DNA of 64,000 bases from Tenacibaculum sp. 190130A14a (lineage in GTDB: Bacteria > Bacteroidota > Bacteroidia > Flavobacteriales > Flavobacteriaceae). This document shows positions 34,901-48,574 of this stretch, one piece after another. Numbering within the stretch: position 1 is the first letter of the stretch; each line of letters begins with the position of its first letter. The stretch lies in NCBI RefSeq assembly GCF_964048965.1, contig NZ_OZ040189.1, positions 310,001-374,000 on the forward strand. The letters run 5' to 3'. The notes beneath the pieces are model-generated. The model saw only the letters and a list, made by a program, of their open reading frames with translations. It was not told where the DNA came from and did not search any database. Position numbers and translations under genes: made by a program.

Positions 34901-36343
<1,443 letters not shown>

Positions 36344-39848: not shown

Positions 39849-39911
39849 ATGCGCATGCAATTAATACACATATCGGACGCTGAGAAGCGATTTTTATGTC
39901 GTTACCAATAG
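39849..39911 (+). CDS. Leader ORF 1 (20 aa) of the pcfJ-rtcB-prfH block
   Basis: A 20-codon ORF directly before an intrinsic terminator. Its sense codons include those for eight of the ten tRNAs encoded in the array at 46.9-48.1 kb: CAA (4, 20), TTA (5, 16), CAC (7), TCG (9), GAC (10), AAG (13), TGT (17) and TAC (19). Only CCN and CUN codons are missing. GGACGCT at codons 9-11 is perfectly complementary to AGCGTCC in the terminator arm. It shares the string IHIS with leader ORF 3. A second in-frame ATG is at codon 3. Interpreted as an attenuator leader peptide. Confidence 0.6.
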   Translation: MRMQLIHISDAEKRFLCRYQ

Positions 39912-39936
39912 GTTATTGTAGTATAAAATCACTAAA

Positions 39937-39970
39937 AAGCGTCCAAGTTTAAAATTTGGACGTTTTTTTT
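39937..39970 (+). terminator. Attenuator-type terminator 1
   Basis: Stem CGTCCAAGT / ATTTGGACG (one wobble) followed by eight T and ATG. The 5' arm can alternatively pair with a segment in leader ORF 1 (39875-39881, seven perfect base pairs), which would break the terminator. Confidence 0.75.
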
Positions 39971-40121
39971 ATGAAAAATTTTCAGGCTGTTGAAAAAAGA
40001 GTTGCCCGTACTACATAACTAACTACCAGTAGGTTACTAATCTGAAGAAATTCGGACAGGAATTGTATACTTTAAATACAAGGTAAGTAACTGAAAATCA
40101 GAAAAATAAATTCAAAAAATA

Positions 40122-40153
40122 TTTGTGTAGTTCAAAAATCCCTTTCATATTTG
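40122..40153 (+). promoter_or_regulatory. Promoter PA of leader ORF 2
   Basis: TTTG, 20-base spacer, CATATTTG. The box, the spacing and about 60 bases upstream (with ACAGGAA and AATCAG.AAAATAAATT strings) recur ahead of leader ORF 4 near 46.6 kb, so the two are paralogous control regions. Confidence 0.7.
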
Positions 40154-40275
40154 CATCGCAATTCAAGCAAAACAAGAGTACAGTTTTAACTACTATGTTT
40201 ATAATTATCAGGGGAGTCTGGTTTTTATATAAGAAAAATAGAAAGTAAAGCTTAACACATTAAAACGAAGTAAAC

Positions 40276-40359
40276 ATGTTAAAATATCAATTAAACATTA
40301 GTACAGTAATAGAACCAGGTTCTTTTGTACACATGCTTCGCGATTTTCTTCATAAATAG
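40276..40359 (+). CDS. Leader ORF 2 (27 aa) of the pcfJ-rtcB-prfH block
   Basis: A 27-codon ORF between promoter PA and a terminator. It holds codons for nine of the ten array tRNAs: TTA (2, 6), AAA (3, 27), TAT (4), CAA (5), CCA (14), TCT (16), CAC/CAT (19, 26), CTT (21, 25) and GAT (23). Cys is missing. Bases 40335-40346 can pair with the 5' arm of the following terminator over 11 base pairs with a single bulged C. Interpreted as an attenuator leader. Confidence 0.62.
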   Translation: MLKYQLNISTVIEPGSFVHMLRDFLHK

Positions 40360-40383
40360 AAATTACTATAACTTATATATGAG

Positions 40384-40418
40384 AAATCCGAAGCCTAATT
40401 AAAGTTTCGGATTTTTTT
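40384..40418 (+). terminator. Attenuator-type terminator 2, ahead of pcfJ
   Basis: Stem AAATCCGAA / TTCGGATTT followed by a T run and ATG. The 5' arm is also complementary to leader ORF 2 (GCTTCG-C-GATTT against AAATC-CGAAGC), giving mutually exclusive structures. Confidence 0.8.
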
Positions 40419-42001: not shown

Positions 42002-42034
42002 AGAGATGATAATGTAATTTATGTTATCATCTCT
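42002..42034 (+). other. Strong RNA hairpin between pcfJ and rtcB
   Basis: AGAGATGATAA and TTATCATCTCT form a perfect 11-bp stem with an 11-base loop. No T run follows, so it is more likely an RNA-stability or processing element than a terminator. An in-frame upstream ATG for rtcB falls in its loop, which is one reason to prefer the ATG at 42054. Confidence 0.65.
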
Positions 42035-42053
42035 TCAAAAGAAAAATAAAAAG

Positions 42054-43445
42054 ATGGGAAAGAAATTAAAAGGAAAAGACCTAATCAATTTAGGCTTTCC
42101 AAAGAATAATAGCATAAACATCGCCTTAGGGCAAATTAACCGATATAGAAAAAAGGAAAAGAAAGAACGCATTTTAGAAGAAGCAAAAGACGTATTGCTT
42201 CATCCAGAAAAATATCAAGGAAATGCGATTTGGGGGAAAGTTGCAGAAGGTTTAACCAAACCAGTAGAAGTTAAAAAGCATCAATTGCGAAATACAAGAG
42301 CTCCATTTTCAATTTATGGAGAAAACGAAATTGATGAACAAGCAAAGTATCAGTTATACGATGCTTTAAAATTACCCATAGCCGTGCAAGGAGCTTTAAT
42401 GCCCGATGCACATTCAGGGTACGGTTTGCCTATAGGCGGTGTATTAGCTACCGAAAATGCTGTAATTCCATACGGAGTGGGATTAGACATTGGTTGTAGA
42501 ATGGCATTAAGCATATTTCCGATGAAGGCCTCTTATTTAAAAGGGAAGCAACATCAAATGGAAAACATATTAAAAGAGCACACCAAATTTGGAATGTATG
42601 AAACCCATGCTAAAAAACAAGATCATGAAATATTCGAGCGTAGAGAGTTTCAAGACATTCCTTTGGTGAAGAAGTTAAAGATGAAAGCATATAATCAACT
42701 AGGAACTTCGGGTGGTGGAAATCATTTTGTAGAATTCGGAATTGTAAACATCTCTGATGAAAACAATGAATTCAATGTTCCAGTTGGTGAATATGTTGGA
42801 CTATTAACGCACAGTGGCTCGAGAGCTTTGGGAGCAAACATTGCTAAACACTATACTTATTTAGCAAGTAAGCAATGTCCGCTTCCCAAAAATGTACAAC
42901 ATTTAGCATGGTTGGATATGGATACACATGACGGACAAGAGTATTGGCTAGCTATGAACTTAGCTGGAGATTATGCAAAGGCATGTCATGATAATATTCA
43001 TAAACGAATTGCAAAATTGTTAGGTATAAAACCATTAACAATGATTGAGAATCACCACAATTTTGCATGGAAAGAGAAGGTAAATGGAGAGGAACGTATT
43101 GTACACAGAAAGGGAGCAACACCTGCTAATAAAGGAGCATTAGGAATTATTCCAGGATCTATGACTGCGCCAGGATATATTGTTCGTGGTTTAGGAAATC
43201 AAGAAAGTTTACAATCAGCGTCACATGGAGCAGGGAGAAAACATTCTCGAAGAAAATGTAAAGAGAAATTTACCAAAAGCGATATCAAACATCAATTAAA
43301 GATGAATGGAGTAAGCTTAATTGGAGGAGGAGTAGACGAAGCACCTATGGCCTATAAGAACATTAAAAAAGTAATGGGAAATCAGCAAGAGTTGGTTGAG
43401 GTAGTAGGAACTTTTACTCCAAAGATTGTAAGAATGGATAAGTAG
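42054..43445 (+). CDS. rtcB: RtcB RNA ligase, PrfH-associated
   Basis: A 463-residue RNA ligase when started at MGKKLKGKDL. The canonical loop MPDAHSGYGLPIGGV is present. GLDIGCRM supplies the Mn-binding Asp and Cys, and GGGNHFVEFG, LLTHSGSRALG and ENHHNFAW supply Asn/His ligands. ASHGAGR holds the guanylylated His (about residue 391). RtcB joins 2',3'-cyclic phosphate to 5'-OH ends, the ends left by anticodon nucleases and colicin E3-type enzymes. Together with prfH two genes on, it matches the known RtcB-PrfH repair pair. Confidence 0.95.
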   Translation: MGKKLKGKDLINLGFPKNNSINIALGQINRYRKKEKKERILEEAKDVLLHPEKYQGNAIWGKVAEGLTKPVEVKKHQLRNTRAPFSIYGENEIDEQAKYQLYDALKLPIAVQGALMPDAHSGYGLPIGGVLATENAVIPYGVGLDIGCRMALSIFPMKASYLKGKQHQMENILKEHTKFGMYETHAKKQDHEIFERREFQDIPLVKKLKMKAYNQLGTSGGGNHFVEFGIVNISDENNEFNVPVGEYVGLLTHSGSRALGANIAKHYTYLASKQCPLPKNVQHLAWLDMDTHDGQEYWLAMNLAGDYAKACHDNIHKRIAKLLGIKPLTMIENHHNFAWKEKVNGEERIVHRKGATPANKGALGIIPGSMTAPGYIVRGLGNQESLQSASHGAGRKHSRRKCKEKFTKSDIKHQLKMNGVSLIGGGVDEAPMAYKNIKKVMGNQQELVEVVGTFTPKIVRMDK

Positions 43446-43582: not shown

Positions 43583-44140
43583 ATGGGAGCAAATCATAAT
43601 ATAAAAAGATATGGAGAGGTATGGCCAGATTATAAAATAGAGTTTGGTCTTAAAATTTTAGAAAAATTAAAACAATGGATTGTAGTTTCAGGAGGTTGGG
43701 CCTGGCATTTTATGTCAGAAATGAACCACAAAGAGTTCAAACATGCACATGACCATAAGGACATAGACATTTTTGTGAATCCGAAAAATGTAGGAATTGT
43801 AATGCAAATTTTACTGGAGGATGGATTCGAAAAAGTTTGGACTAGATATGACCATATGCCGAGCAACGAAAATTTTAGACGCTATGAAAAAAAAGAATGG
43901 TTACCAACAGGAAAAGAAGTCAGAGTAACGATTGATTTTTTCGAATCCAAAACAATCGAAAGTGTTGAGGTAAATGGTTGGAATGTGGTTGAACCAAAGA
44001 CCTTGTTAGGTTTTTATGCAAACATTCATACAAGTGATAAATGTTGGGCAGTAAAATCGGCTATTAAGCTTTTAGAAAAGGGAGAAAACCTGATTGGAAA
44101 TCCATTGTTGTCAAAAATCCCGTTGATGGGAATAACATAA
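43583..44140 (+). CDS. Nucleotidyltransferase-like protein
   Basis: A 185-residue protein. WIVVSGGWAWHFMSE and HDHKDIDIFVNPKN resemble the GG...DxD pattern of minimal nucleotidyltransferases (MNT/LinB type), with metal-binding Asp residues in DIDIF. VRVTIDFFESK could supply the third Asp. A role in adding nucleotides to RNA ends, or modifying tRNA, is inferred from its neighbours rtcB and prfH. The gene ends three bases before prfH. Confidence 0.7.
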   Translation: MGANHNIKRYGEVWPDYKIEFGLKILEKLKQWIVVSGGWAWHFMSEMNHKEFKHAHDHKDIDIFVNPKNVGIVMQILLEDGFEKVWTRYDHMPSNENFRRYEKKEWLPTGKEVRVTIDFFESKTIESVEVNGWNVVEPKTLLGFYANIHTSDKCWAVKSAIKLLEKGENLIGNPLLSKIPLMGIT

Positions 44141-44143
44141 AAA

Positions 44144-44839
44144 ATGGAAACAAAAGTAATTCAGTTTACCGCAGGTCGTGGTCCTGCTGAATGTACTTGG
44201 GTAGTAGCAAAAGTTTTAAAGGTTTTTATAAAAAATGCTATAGAGAATAAAATTAGCTATGAAGTTCTTTACAAAGAACAAGGAGTTGAAAATGGAACGG
44301 TGCAATCCGTTTCCATTCAACTCAAGGGAAAAGAATTATCGGCATTTTTAAAAAACTGGTTAGGCACTATTCAATGGATTGGAAAATCGACATTTAGAAA
44401 ATACCACAAACGTAAAAATTGGTTTATAGGCTGTTTTGAATTGGAATGCACAAGTGAATTAACACTTGCTGAAAAAGACATCGAATTTCAAGCGATTAGA
44501 AGTTCAGGTCCAGGCGGACAACATGCAAACAAGGTAAGTTCTGCAATTAGAGCAAAACATCGTTTAACAGGAGTTCAAGTATTGGTTTCAGAAAGTCGTT
44601 CGCAACATCAAAACAAAAAAATAGCCATTCAACGTTTAAAGAATTTGGTTGTTGTATATCATATTGAACAATTAAAAAATGCGGTTAGGCAAGAGTGGGA
44701 AAACCATTTGAATTTAGAAAGAGGAAACCCAATTCAAGTATTTAAAGGAACCGATTTTAAACATCAGAAAAAGAAAAAAATACCCTATAAATCTAAACGA
44801 AATCAATTGAAGAAAGATTTACGTAAAGAATTAGAATAA
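44144..44839 (+). CDS. prfH: Peptide chain release factor H (PrfH)
   Basis: A 231-residue class I release-factor homologue. The peptidyl-hydrolysis motif GGQ is at residues 124-126 within RSSGPGGQHANKVSSAIRA. It opens VIQFTAGRGPAECTWVVAKV, typical of PrfH, and lacks the stop-codon-recognition domain. PrfH frees ribosomes whose decoding centre has been cut; RtcB then rejoins the 16S rRNA. It is longer at the N-terminus than rescue factor ArfB. It is followed by half of a REP-like element. Confidence 0.93.
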   Translation: METKVIQFTAGRGPAECTWVVAKVLKVFIKNAIENKISYEVLYKEQGVENGTVQSVSIQLKGKELSAFLKNWLGTIQWIGKSTFRKYHKRKNWFIGCFELECTSELTLAEKDIEFQAIRSSGPGGQHANKVSSAIRAKHRLTGVQVLVSESRSQHQNKKIAIQRLKNLVVVYHIEQLKNAVRQEWENHLNLERGNPIQVFKGTDFKHQKKKKIPYKSKRNQLKKDLRKELE

Positions 44840-44877: not shown

Positions 44878-45408
44878 ATGAAAACATTAGCAAACAATTA
44901 CATATTTAAAGCATTAGATGCTTTTCCATATGATTTAGAAGAAGCTATGGAAGCTTTGACGTATGCATTGGCATATGAAGAAAAAAATGTGATGGCTTTG
45001 TGTTTAATGGGACGCATATATGCAGAACATTTATGTGATTTTGAACAAGCGAAACAATATTATACGGAAGCCTTAGCCGAAAACATCAATGCGTTTCATG
45101 TATATCCAAATTATATCAATGTCTTATTATGGAATGAAGATCACAATGAAGCAGAGCGATTAATCGATTTTGCATTGACCTTAAAAGGAGCCGATAAAGG
45201 AGTGTTGCATGTTGCAAAGGCACAATTGTATGAGCAAAAAGAAAGCTATAAAAAAGCATTAAAGTTTTTAAAGGAAGCAAAGAAGTATACCTATAATGAA
45301 AGTTATATGTATACGATTAAAGAGCATATTTCAAGAGTAGAAGACAAGATTCCTAAGAAAAAGAAGCAAAAAAGTAAAAAAAAGGAGAACAAGAAATGCT
45401 ATGGCTAG
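44878..45408 (+). CDS. TPR-repeat protein
   Basis: A 176-residue helical protein with about three tetratricopeptide-like repeats (for example EAMEALTYALAYEEKNVMAL, QAKQYYTEALAENINAFHVY and KALKFLKEAKKYT). It ends with a Lys-rich tail that may bind RNA. Known TPR proteins act as scaffolds, and no catalytic residues are seen. The stop overlaps the ATG of the next small gene. Confidence 0.82.
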   Translation: MKTLANNYIFKALDAFPYDLEEAMEALTYALAYEEKNVMALCLMGRIYAEHLCDFEQAKQYYTEALAENINAFHVYPNYINVLLWNEDHNEAERLIDFALTLKGADKGVLHVAKAQLYEQKESYKKALKFLKEAKKYTYNESYMYTIKEHISRVEDKIPKKKKQKSKKKENKKCYG

Positions 45409-45658: not shown

Positions 45659-46222
45659 ATGAATAAGAATAAAATAATTGTAATAGATATAGAAGCTACT
45701 TGTTGGGATGGAAAAATTCCACCAGGGCAAGTAAGTGAAATTATAGAATTTGGTATTTGTGTTTTAGATACTGAATCTGGAGAAATAGAAAAGAATAAAG
45801 GAATTTTAGTAAAACCAGAACGCTCTGAAGTAAGTTCATTTTGTACAGAGCTTACTACAATAACTCAAGACTTACTAGATAAAGAAGGTGTTTCATTTGA
45901 AGAAGCCTGTAATCAATTACGAAAAACATACAATTCAAAAGAATATGTTTGGGCGAGCTATGGTTTATATGATTTGAAAATGATTAAAAACCAATGTAAC
46001 ATCAGAAACATTGAGTACCCTTTATCACAAGAACATATAAATGTAAAAGAGTTGTTTAGAGAAGTAAAAGGAATGTCTAGAAAAGTAGGAATGAAAGGGG
46101 CTTTAGCTATACTAAATATACCTTTAGAAGGAACACACCATAGAGGTGTAGATGATGCAAAAAATATTGCAAAGGTTTTGCATTGGAGCTTAAAAAACAA
46201 AAAGGAAGCTGAACGTATTTAA
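45659..46222 (+). CDS. DEDDh 3'-5' exonuclease (ERI-1/KapD-like)
   Basis: A 187-residue exonuclease. Exo I: IVIDIEATCWDGK (residues 6-18), with Asp and Glu. Exo II: YVWASYGLYDLKMIKNQ (Asp near 105). Exo III: HHRGVDDAKNIAKVL, with the His and Asp that complete DEDDh. ERI-1-type enzymes trim structured RNA 3' ends. Here it may trim damaged tRNA or rRNA ends, which is inference. It is the last gene before the tRNA leader region. Confidence 0.88.
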   Translation: MNKNKIIVIDIEATCWDGKIPPGQVSEIIEFGICVLDTESGEIEKNKGILVKPERSEVSSFCTELTTITQDLLDKEGVSFEEACNQLRKTYNSKEYVWASYGLYDLKMIKNQCNIRNIEYPLSQEHINVKELFREVKGMSRKVGMKGALAILNIPLEGTHHRGVDDAKNIAKVLHWSLKNKKEAERI

Positions 46223-46247
46223 AAATTGATTACTATTGTACTCACAA

Positions 46248-46364
46248 ATGAAATTAGATTTTATACATATCAGTAAACAATTAGAACTTTGTTCGTATGG
46301 AACTTGCCCGGATATTGGCAAGACGGATGCTATGTATACTAATTTCAAGAATTATAATCGGTAG
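46248..46364 (+). CDS. Leader ORF 3 (38 aa) of the tRNA array
   Basis: A 38-codon ORF 25 bases after the exonuclease gene and just before a terminator. Codons 2-21 include a cognate codon for every one of the ten array tRNAs: AAA (2, 10), TTA (3, 12), GAT (4), CAT (7), CAA (11), CTT (14), TGT (15), TCG (16), TAT (17) and CCG (21). TCG and CCG should be rare in such AT-rich DNA. GGATGCT near codons 26-28 can pair with the terminator 5' arm (seven pairs, one G-U). Interpreted as a multi-tRNA sensing leader peptide. Confidence 0.7.
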   Translation: MKLDFIHISKQLELCSYGTCPDIGKTDAMYTNFKNYNR

Positions 46365-46390
46365 AAATTGATAAAAAGAGATACAAATAC

Positions 46391-46421
46391 AAGCGTCCAA
46401 TGTAAATTGGACGCTTTTTTT
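46391..46421 (+). terminator. Attenuator-type terminator 3
   Basis: Perfect 10-bp stem AAGCGTCCAA / TTGGACGCTT, seven T, then ATG. AGCGTCC in the 5' arm can pair instead with GGATGCT at 46325-46331 inside leader ORF 3. The stem sequence is close to that of terminator 1. Confidence 0.85.
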
Positions 46422-46605
46422 ATGAAAAAAATTAAAAGGAAAAATGTTAGACTAATAAGATTTAAAATAAAGAGCTAAAACTGAAAACAATTGAGAGACA
46501 GACATTTGTAAATAGGAACTAAATTCGTTTAAATACGAACAGGAAATCTATTGTTTTAAAACAAATATAACTAATTGATAATCAGTAAAATAAATTAAAT
46601 TTTTC

Positions 46606-46637
46606 CTTGTGTAATTAAAAAATAGCATTCATATTTG
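46606..46637 (+). promoter_or_regulatory. Promoter PB of leader ORF 4 and the tRNA array
   Basis: CTTG, 20-base spacer, CATATTTG, the same geometry as promoter PA at 40122. About 60 bases upstream are also alike in both places. It drives a leader, a terminator and then the tRNA genes. Confidence 0.7.
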
Positions 46638-46680
46638 CAACGTCAAAACGAATTAAAAAGAATCGTATAAACAATATAAA

Positions 46681-46812
46681 ATGAAACAGTATTTACAACA
46701 TAGTATAACCTATCATAGTCAATTTCGTTCGCCGAAAAATGATCTACTATTATGTGGAGGAGACGCTGGGTTCATTTATAAAAAGGAGATAGATGATGGA
46801 AATATAAATTAA
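46681..46812 (+). CDS. Leader ORF 4 (43 aa) of the tRNA array
   Basis: A 43-codon ORF after promoter PB and before the last terminator. Codons 2-25 again cover all ten array tRNAs: AAA (2, 19), CAG/CAA (3, 6, 14), TAT (4, 11), TTA (5, 24), CAT (7, 12), TCG (17), CCG (18), GAT (21), CTA (22, 23) and TGT (25). Seventeen of these 24 codons are read by the array set. AAGGAGAT at codons 35-37 is complementary to ATCTCCTT in the terminator 5' arm and loop. Interpreted as the main sensing leader of the array. Confidence 0.72.
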   Translation: MKQYLQHSITYHSQFRSPKNDLLLCGGDAGFIYKKEIDDGNIN

Positions 46813-46837
46813 GTATTTCTTCATTTAAAAAGCATTA

Positions 46838-46869
46838 AAGCATCTCCTTGTACGAGATGCTTTTTTTAT
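46838..46869 (+). terminator. Attenuator-type terminator 4, directly before the tRNA array
   Basis: Perfect stem AAGCATCTC / GAGATGCTT, seven-base loop, seven T, then ATG. The first tRNA begins 13 bases after. ATCTCCTT (46842-46849) can pair alternatively with AAGGAGAT (46783-46790) in leader ORF 4, so transcription of the array probably depends on read-through. Confidence 0.85.
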
Positions 46870-46881
46870 GCGATAAAACTA

Positions 46882-46969
46882 GGATGGACAAGCCAATTTG
46901 GTGGTGGCCACAGTTTTGAAAACTGTTCGGAGTTAACGACTCGTGTGGGTTCGAATCCCACTCCTTCCG
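46882..46969 (+). tRNA. tRNA-Ser(UGA), island array 1
   Basis: An 88-base class II tRNA. Acceptor GGATGGA / TCCTTCC with one T-T mismatch, anticodon loop TTTGAAA (UGA at 46917-46919), a long variable arm and TTCGAAT T loop. Discriminator G, as expected for Ser. No encoded CCA. Confidence 0.92.
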
Positions 46970-47050: not shown

Positions 47051-47236
47051 CAATGATTGAAGTAATTCAAACTTGTTTGAGAATTACGGAAATCCACTTT
47101 GTGGCTAGATGAGAACGCGCAGCACTCTCATCCTTGTCTCAATGATTGAAGCAATTCAAACTTGTTTGAGAATTGCGGAAATCCACTTTGTGGCTAGATG
47201 AGAACGCGCAGCAATCTCATCCTTGTCTCAATGATC
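47038..47236 (+). repeat. Tandem 89-base pseudo-tRNA-Cys repeat
   Basis: Two full 89-base units and a partial third, each starting with the last 13 bases of tRNA-Cys (CTCATCCTTGTCT at 47038, 47127 and 47216). Each unit contains a long hairpin (GYAATTC-AAAC-TT-GTTT-GA-GAATTRC), a small CCAC-TTT-GTGG hairpin, and a T-arm-like GATGAG / CTCATC stem whose loop is 13 bases instead of seven. The units differ at three positions. Two of these form one base pair (T-A in unit 1, C-G in unit 2), which supports a conserved RNA structure. Confidence 0.8.
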
Positions 47237-48097: not shown

Positions 48098-48574
48098 GTG
48101 GAACAAAAATGGAGAAATTTTAGTGGAAAAGTATTTGATGAATCTATTCTAAACGTGCTTGAAAAAGCAATTGTAAAGGAAAAGAAAGAAGGATATCGTT
48201 TAAAGGTTTGTGTTGGGTCAGATTCTCAAGCTTATAAATCGCATATTGAATATGCAACAGCAATTGTTGTATTGAGAGAAGGTAAAGGAGGCTTTATGTT
48301 TGTTAGAAACACAAAGGGAACCAAACAAATATCTATCAAAGAACGAATGCTTAAAGAGGTAACAATGTCTGTAAACATTGCCTATGCAATTTGCGATATG
48401 TTAGACAAGCATAATGTTGCCCTAGAGGTTCATGCAGATATTAATACAGATCCGAAGTTTCAATCGAGTGTTGCCTTGAAAGATGCTATGGGTTACATTT
48501 TAGGAATGGGGTTTGAATTTAAAGCGAAACCTTACGCATTTGCAAGTTCATCTTGTGCCGATAGAGTAGTATAA
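48098..48574 (+). CDS. YkuK/DUF458 RNase H-like protein
   Basis: A 158-residue protein of the DUF458 (YkuK) family, predicted to have an RNase H-like fold. VCVGSDSQAYKSHIEYATAIVV supplies the first Asp, LEVHADINTDPKFQSS an Asp pair, and AYAFASSSCADRVV-like ends are typical. The start is a GTG 37 bases after tRNA-His, so it probably shares the array transcript. It may act on tRNA or other RNA, which is inference. Confidence 0.88.
   Translation: MEQKWRNFSGKVFDESILNVLEKAIVKEKKEGYRLKVCVGSDSQAYKSHIEYATAIVVLREGKGGFMFVRNTKGTKQISIKERMLKEVTMSVNIAYAICDMLDKHNVALEVHADINTDPKFQSSVALKDAMGYILGMGFEFKAKPYAFASSSCADRVV

Follow-up and report, generated by a model that had tools for sequence, protein, structure and literature searches.

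Behind an RNA-repair operon of Tenacibaculum sp. 190130A14a lies an array of ten tRNA genes, and directly ahead of the array stands a short open reading frame (ORF) followed by a terminator. Does this ORF sense the very tRNAs that the array would supply? An earlier note, made by a model from the sequence, had proposed as much: the ORF was seen to hold a codon for each array tRNA, as would be needed if shortage or cleavage of any one of them were to switch the array on. Here we analyse the whole stretch of DNA to which that note referred ("the window", 64,000 nucleotides of contig NZ_OZ040189.1; all positions are those of the window) together with related loci. The codon match and its co-variation with the array were computed directly, as were ORF conservation, terminators and antiterminator complementarity; together they suggest that tandem ribosome-mediated attenuators sense the tRNAs supplied by the array, a reading to which we give a probability of roughly 0.8. 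The genes of the locus are as follows.

42021..43445, + strand: RtcB RNA ligase gene
44144..44839, + strand: gene for a release-factor homologue with an RF-1 domain, read as PrfH
44878..45408, + strand: TPR protein gene
45659..46222, + strand: RNase_T family exonuclease gene, immediately 5' of leader L1
46882..48061, + strand: array of 10 tRNA genes (Ser-tga, Cys, Tyr, Leu-taa, Asp, Pro, Lys, Leu-tag, Gln, His)
48098..48574, + strand: RNase H-like protein gene (PF04308), 3' of the array

The order is thus RtcB, PrfH, TPR protein, RNase_T exonuclease, array and RNase H-like protein, and it includes an RtcB-PrfH RNA repair module, that is, an RtcB-family ligase beside an RF-1-domain release-factor homologue. 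The name PrfH is our assumption, and it agrees with the position of the gene behind RtcB; the protein is 97% identical to PrfH of a Tenacibaculum contig. Between RtcB and PrfH, positions 43583-44140 hold a protein gene for which Pfam gave nothing at E 0.001. Further upstream (34913-36343) lies a second, divergent RtcB-family gene, behind which come a DUF434/DUF5616 protein and others. There are 67 tRNA matches in the host genome, 10 of these in the array, and all ten array isoacceptors are present elsewhere in the genome too. Behind tRNA-Cys (47052-47234), two tandem repeats of ~90 nt each end in a copy of the tRNA-Cys 3' end.

Two leaders ahead of the tRNA array

The region between the exonuclease gene and the array contains these features.

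46248..46364, + strand: leader ORF L1, 38 codons
46391..46416, + strand: intrinsic terminator T1
46484..46555, + strand: conserved non-coding element between T1 and P2, from an alignment of loci
46607..46637, + strand: promoter-like sequence P2 (TTG ... TATTTG) 5' of L2, found in 17/19 aligned loci
46681..46812, + strand: leader ORF L2, 43 codons, with sensing codons 2-25 at 46684-46755
46837..46863, + strand: intrinsic terminator T2, a hairpin and then a T run

L2 is the 43-codon ORF of the earlier note, and it, its terminator and the array lie where they had been placed. Its codons 2-25 read K Q Y L(TTA) Q H S I T Y H S Q F R S(TCG) P(CCG) K N D L(CTA) L(CTA) L(TTA) C. A recount bears out both counts that had been given for them: all ten array classes occur (10/10), and 17/24 codons belong to the array set. 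L1, which had been missed, begins a second module that starts ~430 nt 5' of L2, and its codons 2-22 likewise include 10/10 array classes. The L1 ATG stands ~10 nt 3' of a TAnnTTTG-like box that is also found in aligned relatives. P2 is called promoter-like from what we take to be the Bacteroidetes consensus; among the 19 loci aligned, it is missing in L162 and L164. The element between the modules has the form AACAATTGRGAGACAG ... CCG-loop-CGGACAGG. When folded, it shows a 4-bp stem kept in 54-55/55 sequences with little covariation, and it is possibly an operator or an RNA element. A GGACAGG stretch resembling it occurs 5' of L3, the leader of the rtcB-prfH operon described below.

A match of this kind is rarely produced by chance. 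The probability that the earlier note had proposed to compute, that of full ten-class coverage in 24 codons, is P = 9.0e-4 with codons drawn from local gene usage, and the same model gives P = 3.2e-4 for 21 codons, the L1 case; both use codon limits that are post hoc, since 2-25 was set by the earlier note on seeing the sequence and 2-22 in this analysis. Real 24-codon gene windows contain all ten classes in 15/15693 cases. The ORF-wide scan is independent of these limits, as are the results from related loci: among the window's short ATG ORFs (25-149 codons), only 2/208 contain all ten classes, and these two are L1 and L2.

Leader codons and array content in related loci

Related loci were collected in several ways. 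A PrfH search of genome contigs gave 401 loci, of which the best 80 were used; a cluster of at least 3 tRNAs, as called by a script scanner, was present in 20 of these best 80. A tRNA-Cys probe matched in 26/397 genomes of the family and 13/116 of the genus, in 30/66 of the genus of G177 (Aquimarina) and in 1/8 of a further genus. Order-wide it matched in 9/296 genomes and phylum-wide in 48/345, and matches outside the family were mostly partial. The RNaseH_like protein was tried as a marker and rejected: 32/397 family genomes match, only 6 of them strongly (E below 1e-70). Arrays are present in all six strongly matching genomes, the window's own genome being one. Extended stretches were taken in sets of 5, 20 and 40, with some probe matches left out (for example, G769 and G523). 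A covariance model, R1 (15 pairs), was set aside for the script scanner, which recovers 715/732 ARAGORN calls, 708 with the same anticodon, and at a score of 26 retains 99.6% of recovered calls with 0.019 hits per kb upstream.

The 67 loci kept (window included, most duplicates removed) were selected for having at least one leader; given this selection, L1 with T1 is present in 64/67, L2 with T2 in 64/67 and both in 61/67. The gap from leader stop to hairpin has a median of 24 nt (19-29) for T2 and 33 nt (21-45) for T1, and arrays range from 1 to 21 called tRNAs. Leaders were hand-picked among ORFs close to a terminator, and composition played no part. The start of well over a dozen leaders was placed at an internal ATG of a longer in-frame ORF (for example, L041, L115, L149, L158, L165, L209, L212 and L230). 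No terminator was found for the L2 of L116. L161 has no L1 in the table, and the "L1" of L162 and of L164 are weak assignments. L079 and L226 are one contig, both with <8 tRNAs. L150, L152 and L153, which lack L1 and L2, were tested separately, and L083, L156, L166, L167, L238 and L245, which have no clear leader or array, were omitted. Odd tRNA calls were removed in L041, L066, L097, L115, L163, L211 and L227, and two anticodon-tta calls (L035, L155) were counted as Leu.

The short upstream ORF is under coding constraint, clearly in Aquimarina and weakly elsewhere. Synonymous changes in Aquimarina number 1036 versus 592 expected for L2 and 322 versus 192 for L1, in pairs that are not independent; the excess is weak in Tenacibaculum L2 (26 versus 21 expected) and in L2 of the Maribacter group (36 versus 27). 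Leaders that look intact persist beside some decayed arrays. A synonymous excess, together with recurring residues such as QH and SP, is what would be seen if the ORFs encoded small functional peptides, with the terminators acting as insulators and the place before the array a coincidence. However, the leader sequences differ widely, yet their layout and codon classes persist; two different ORFs show the same codon match; and the 3' part of the leader is complementary to a terminator arm. We consider a functional peptide quite improbable.

Co-variation between leader and array was measured in loci with at least 8 tRNAs, 49 of the 67 with L2 and 48 with both leaders. In the 49 loci, L2 covers 567/593 array classes versus 359 expected from random codons, and in the 48 loci L1 covers 549/580 versus 319. 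The +1 and +2 frames are chance-like (L2 361 and 339 of 593; L1 362 and 324). Jointly the two leaders cover 585/593 classes and are complete in 42/49 loci. When leaders were permuted among the 48 loci, the observed on-minus-off score was reached in 0/20000 permutations for L1 and for L2, either freely or within clades. Thus, the homologous loci, which the earlier note had named as the place to look, do show leader codons that co-vary with array content. At the amino-acid level the observed match in the 48 loci was again reached in 0/20000 permutations. In a reduced set of 18 loci (a single representative of each large clade together with 15 others, part of the set being related to each other), 0-1/20000 permutations reached it, and the two leaders together cover 199/199 amino acids. 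Within single groups, the number of permutations of 20000 reaching the observed match was 63 for L2 and 0 for L1 in other genera, 77 and 3 in Tenacibaculum, 162 and 1193 in Aquimarina, and 1146 and 719 in the Maribacter group.

Related loci have leaders and arrays in common, and permuted leaders still cover ~90% of classes, as might be expected if the leaders were passive relics whose correlation with the array is purely phylogenetic. The within-clade permutations and the 18-locus set, however, argue against common ancestry as the whole cause, and so does the lack of any signal in L3 of the same loci (see below). This explanation is therefore highly improbable.

Rare classes show the tracking best in L2. 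An internal Met codon is present in 6/7 L2 leaders with an array tRNA-Met versus 4/42 without, and the same comparison gives 8/8 versus 19/41 for Gly, 3/3 versus 12/46 for Ala and 5/5 versus 19/44 for Val. For L1 the values are 6/7 versus 9/41 (Met), 8/8 versus 10/40 (Gly), 3/3 versus 19/45 (Ala) and 4/5 versus 16/43 (Val). A sensing UGG is found in 9 L2 and 6 L1 leaders of the 14 arrays with tRNA-Trp, versus 14/35 L2 and 16/34 L1 leaders where the array lacks it; thus, tracking of Trp is weak in L2 and absent in L1. In four Tenacibaculum loci (L041, L115, L209, L213) the array has tRNA-Trp and both leaders lack a sensing UGG; the L1 tail of L213 contains one UGG. L218 has one UGG in L1, and its tRNA-Trp is a scanner-only call. 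Conversely, a leader UGG without an intact array tRNA-Trp occurs in L067, L154 and several Aquimarina loci.

Uncovered classes include Asp in L157, Cys and Asp in L161 (no L1 known) and Glu in L219. Extra codon classes are present in every one of the 49 L2 leaders, and thus the match is one of inclusion, not identity. When the choice of Ser, Leu and Arg isoacceptors was compared with the array across loci, no tracking was seen. The leader-array match therefore holds for amino acids, and isoacceptor tuning is unsupported for Ser, Leu and Arg. As a whole, the sensing-leader proposal of the earlier note is favoured by the co-variation and by the complementary terminator arm and L3 control described next, and it is not borne out in the matching of Trp or of isoacceptors.

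Antiterminators, a proposed switch and a control leader

Near the 3' end of each leader is a strand that can pair with the 5' arm of the terminator behind it.

46325..46331, + strand: L1 antiterminator strand GGATGCT, pairing with the T1 5' arm; relatives pair alike
46783..46790, + strand: L2 antiterminator strand AAGGAGAT, pairing with 46842-46849 (ATCTCCTT), from folding

Folding of 46781-46853, a stretch without the 3' arm of the terminator, gives the predicted L2 antiterminator as the minimum-energy structure (-18.8 kcal/mol). An alternative upstream L2 strand (~46757-46767) has the best duplex score and is preferred when a longer stretch is folded. Pairing of the AAGGAGAT/ATCTCCTT type recurs in several other Tenacibaculum loci, and across clades the L2 strand, AAGGAGAT, GGTGTCT or GGGAG, is complementary to that clade's T2 arm. 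For L1, a GGACGCT-like strand faces AGCGTCC in T1 across loci. The L2 end pairs with its own arm at a mean of -10.9 kcal/mol versus -7.8 with arms from other clades and -6.8 when the end is shuffled (0/5000 permutations); the L1 end pairs with its own arm at -11.7 versus -11.1 kcal/mol for other clades' arms (0/5000 permutations). The leader end also pairs with the arm better than the preceding 54 nt do in 52/58 L2 and 61/62 L1 leaders, and it beats all 20 of its own shuffles in only 25/58 and 39/62, respectively. On sequence and energy, antiterminator and terminator are mutually exclusive.

The position of array-type codons relative to this strand was profiled in leaders whose best duplex lies 12-42 nt before the stop, a set that leaves out the window's own L2. 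In L2 their density peaks at 0.87 at 7-9 codons before the antiterminator and is 0.39 on the strand; the L1 values are 0.78-0.81 at 10-15 codons ahead of the strand (0.81 at 10-12) and 0.48 on it. Early L1 is unenriched (0.46-0.47 at 19-27 codons before the strand). A protector hairpin of the trp 1:2 type shows no excess over shuffles in either leader (L1 -8.18 versus -8.17, L2 -7.32 versus -7.34). Therefore a two-state switch is expected, and a leader that is not translated should be ON.

In the mechanism that we propose, two tandem ribosome-mediated transcription attenuators would control the array, each with its own promoter-like sequence and each consisting of a translated short ORF with array-type codons, an antiterminator strand near the ORF 3' end and an intrinsic terminator positioned 19-45 nt past the leader stop. 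With all array-type tRNAs charged and intact, a ribosome would reach the stop and block antiterminator pairing, and transcription would end. Were any one of these tRNAs missing, whether cleaved, depleted or uncharged, the ribosome would halt upstream; the antiterminator could then pair with the terminator 5' arm, and the array would be transcribed. The array tRNAs would in turn restore leader translation and shut the system off by feedback. Only a ribosome that reaches the leader end would thus silence the array. Leader translation, stalling, read-through and feedback are each predicted here from the arrangement of the elements, and the trigger may be damage by tRNA-cutting toxins or defence nucleases.

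A similar set of elements precedes the rtcB-prfH operon.

39849..39911, + strand: short L1-like ORF MRMQLIHISDAEKRFLCRYQ, 20 codons, 5' of L3, read from the sequence
39937..39965, + strand: terminator T1', 3' of the L1-like ORF
40276..40359, + strand: operon leader L3, 27 codons, 5' of rtcB-prfH
40384..40414, + strand: terminator T3, 3' of L3

The stretch 39849-40414 resembles the pair L1-T1/L2-T2. The earlier reading of one leader thus needs extension, to two tandem attenuators at the array plus a similar pair 5' of the RNA-repair operon. L3-T3 is present in 70/146 scanned sequences (61 distinct leaders), many of these stretches ending short of the operon. Among the best 80 of 401 PrfH loci, with and without arrays, 51 have it. 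Nor are T1-like terminators confined to array loci: they occur in 23/60 array-less PrfH loci, upstream of prfH in 20 of the 23.

L3 serves as a control for the codon match. In 23 loci where the array is attenuated separately, L3 covers 187/274 array classes, a value reached in 3715/5000 permutations, and thus it does not track the array; the whole L2 and L1 leaders of the same loci cover 268/274 and 257/274 (0/5000 permutations). Three loci have an L3-type leader at the head of the unit to which the array belongs; taken whole, this leader covers 11/14 classes in L150, 10/11 in L152 and 11/11 in L153. Since L3 does not track separately attenuated arrays and has high coverage where it heads an array unit, in only three loci, the codon match appears to follow the regulated product.

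L3 itself looks like a general sensor of translation stress, and L1 and L2 might be the same: attenuators that sense any ribosome stall, caused by an antibiotic or a damaged ribosome, in which codon variety is incidental or maximises diversity. Trp codons, which do not track, would agree with this, as would a proposed antibiotic-responsive case in Pseudomonas, the RtcB-like armZ beside prfH, from the accessible part of a review (PMC12057347). However, whole L1 and L2 leaders do track array content, and Met, Ala, Gly and Val codons of L2 are commoner when the array has that tRNA. General stress attenuators are therefore unlikely here, and sensing of the array tRNAs is the reading that we retain.

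Known systems, phage-like tRNAs and a tRNA reserve

Leader-peptide attenuation is an established class of mechanism. The trp, his, ilv and pheST attenuators contain a short ORF with regulatory codons, an intrinsic terminator and an alternative antiterminator, and they share all of these with the array leaders. Unlike them, the array leaders span 6-20 codon classes (in the loci tested), stand in tandem and precede tRNA genes, and unlike attenuators of the trp type they have no detected protector hairpin. The T-box riboswitch senses tRNA charging 5' of translation genes, a likeness to the array leaders; however, no T-box was matched by Rfam at gathering in the window or in a loose scan of 46180-46900. 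Rfam matches at gathering, in the window and in 46180-46900, are to tRNAs only. Phe_leader appeared at both terminators in the loose scan at sub-threshold scores, 27.0 and 19.8 bits versus a cut-off of 55, and was not used. Whereas the rtcBA operon is controlled by RtcR, a protein activator, the sensor proposed here is a translated leader.

The nearest published case that we found, as judged from the accessible part of a review, is the leader PA5471.1 of P. aeruginosa, which by proposed attenuation regulates the RtcB-like armZ beside prfH after ribosome inhibition (PMC12057347). It is comparable to L3-T3 5' of rtcB; that part of the review mentions no tRNA array or product-matched codon set. 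A term search of the 2006 paper on the rtcB-prfH operon found leaders and attenuation absent from its text (PMC1586002). In the literature searched, which is thin in subscription journals, we found no publication in which a leader is matched to a tRNA set or array and nothing on PrfH with tRNA genes in Bacteroidetes. The novelty that the earlier note had claimed for a leader matched to a whole tRNA set stands within that same literature, which includes few subscription journals.

What the array supplies resembles phage tRNAs. In the window, position 37 of the array tRNAs differs from that of the host in 5/10 (Asp, Pro, Leu-tag, Gln, Leu-taa), and across loci U37 is present in 50/50 Asp and 43/43 Glu array genes with a parsed loop. 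Array DNA matches 24 phage records, those listed spanning tRNA-sized stretches, and has no match in the plasmid records searched. With tRNAs of Vibrio, Aeromonas, Acinetobacter and Cellulophaga phages, stretches of the array share 76-90% identity. A tRNA-Asp of an Aeromonas phage has the same loop type with U37; the second tRNA-Asp of that phage lacks U37, as do one tRNA-Asp and one tRNA-Glu of a Vibrio phage. The array tRNA-Leu genes are 74-75 nt and have no long variable arm, while those of the host are 85-87 nt; one array tRNA-Leu matches a phage tRNA-Leu. One array slot switches between tRNA-Lys and tRNA-Asn (L061 12613-12686, L060 12652-12725), with few changes elsewhere in the gene, which suggests a change of identity in place.

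It has been proposed, in the accessible part of the source, that phage tRNAs resist host anticodon nucleases through loop changes (PMC10264068). Phage tRNA arrays share such anticodon-loop changes with the arrays described here; in contrast, the latter are chromosomal and lie behind attenuators and RNA-repair genes. In E. coli, RtcB2-PrfH protected against colicin E3 and not against the tRNA-cutting colicins E5 and D, according to the available portion of that report (PMC9223846). A division of labour would fit, in which the array answers tRNA loss and RtcB-PrfH answers ribosome damage. We lean, with some reserve, towards the wider picture of a closed-loop reserve, in which silent phage-type tRNAs, probably nuclease-resistant, are kept behind two tandem leaders re-tuned in evolution and are co-induced with rtcB-prfH through its own attenuators, allowing recovery from weapons that cut tRNAs or ribosomes.

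To our knowledge, the attenuators described so far each respond to a single amino acid or to a few. The array leaders would read a whole tRNA set and would thus form an OR gate for tRNA damage, with predictions that are testable codon by codon. Such leaders would provide a regulatory logic for chromosomal tRNA arrays and tie them to RtcB-PrfH repair, and arrays and leaders together could reveal which tRNAs a lineage is pressed to protect.
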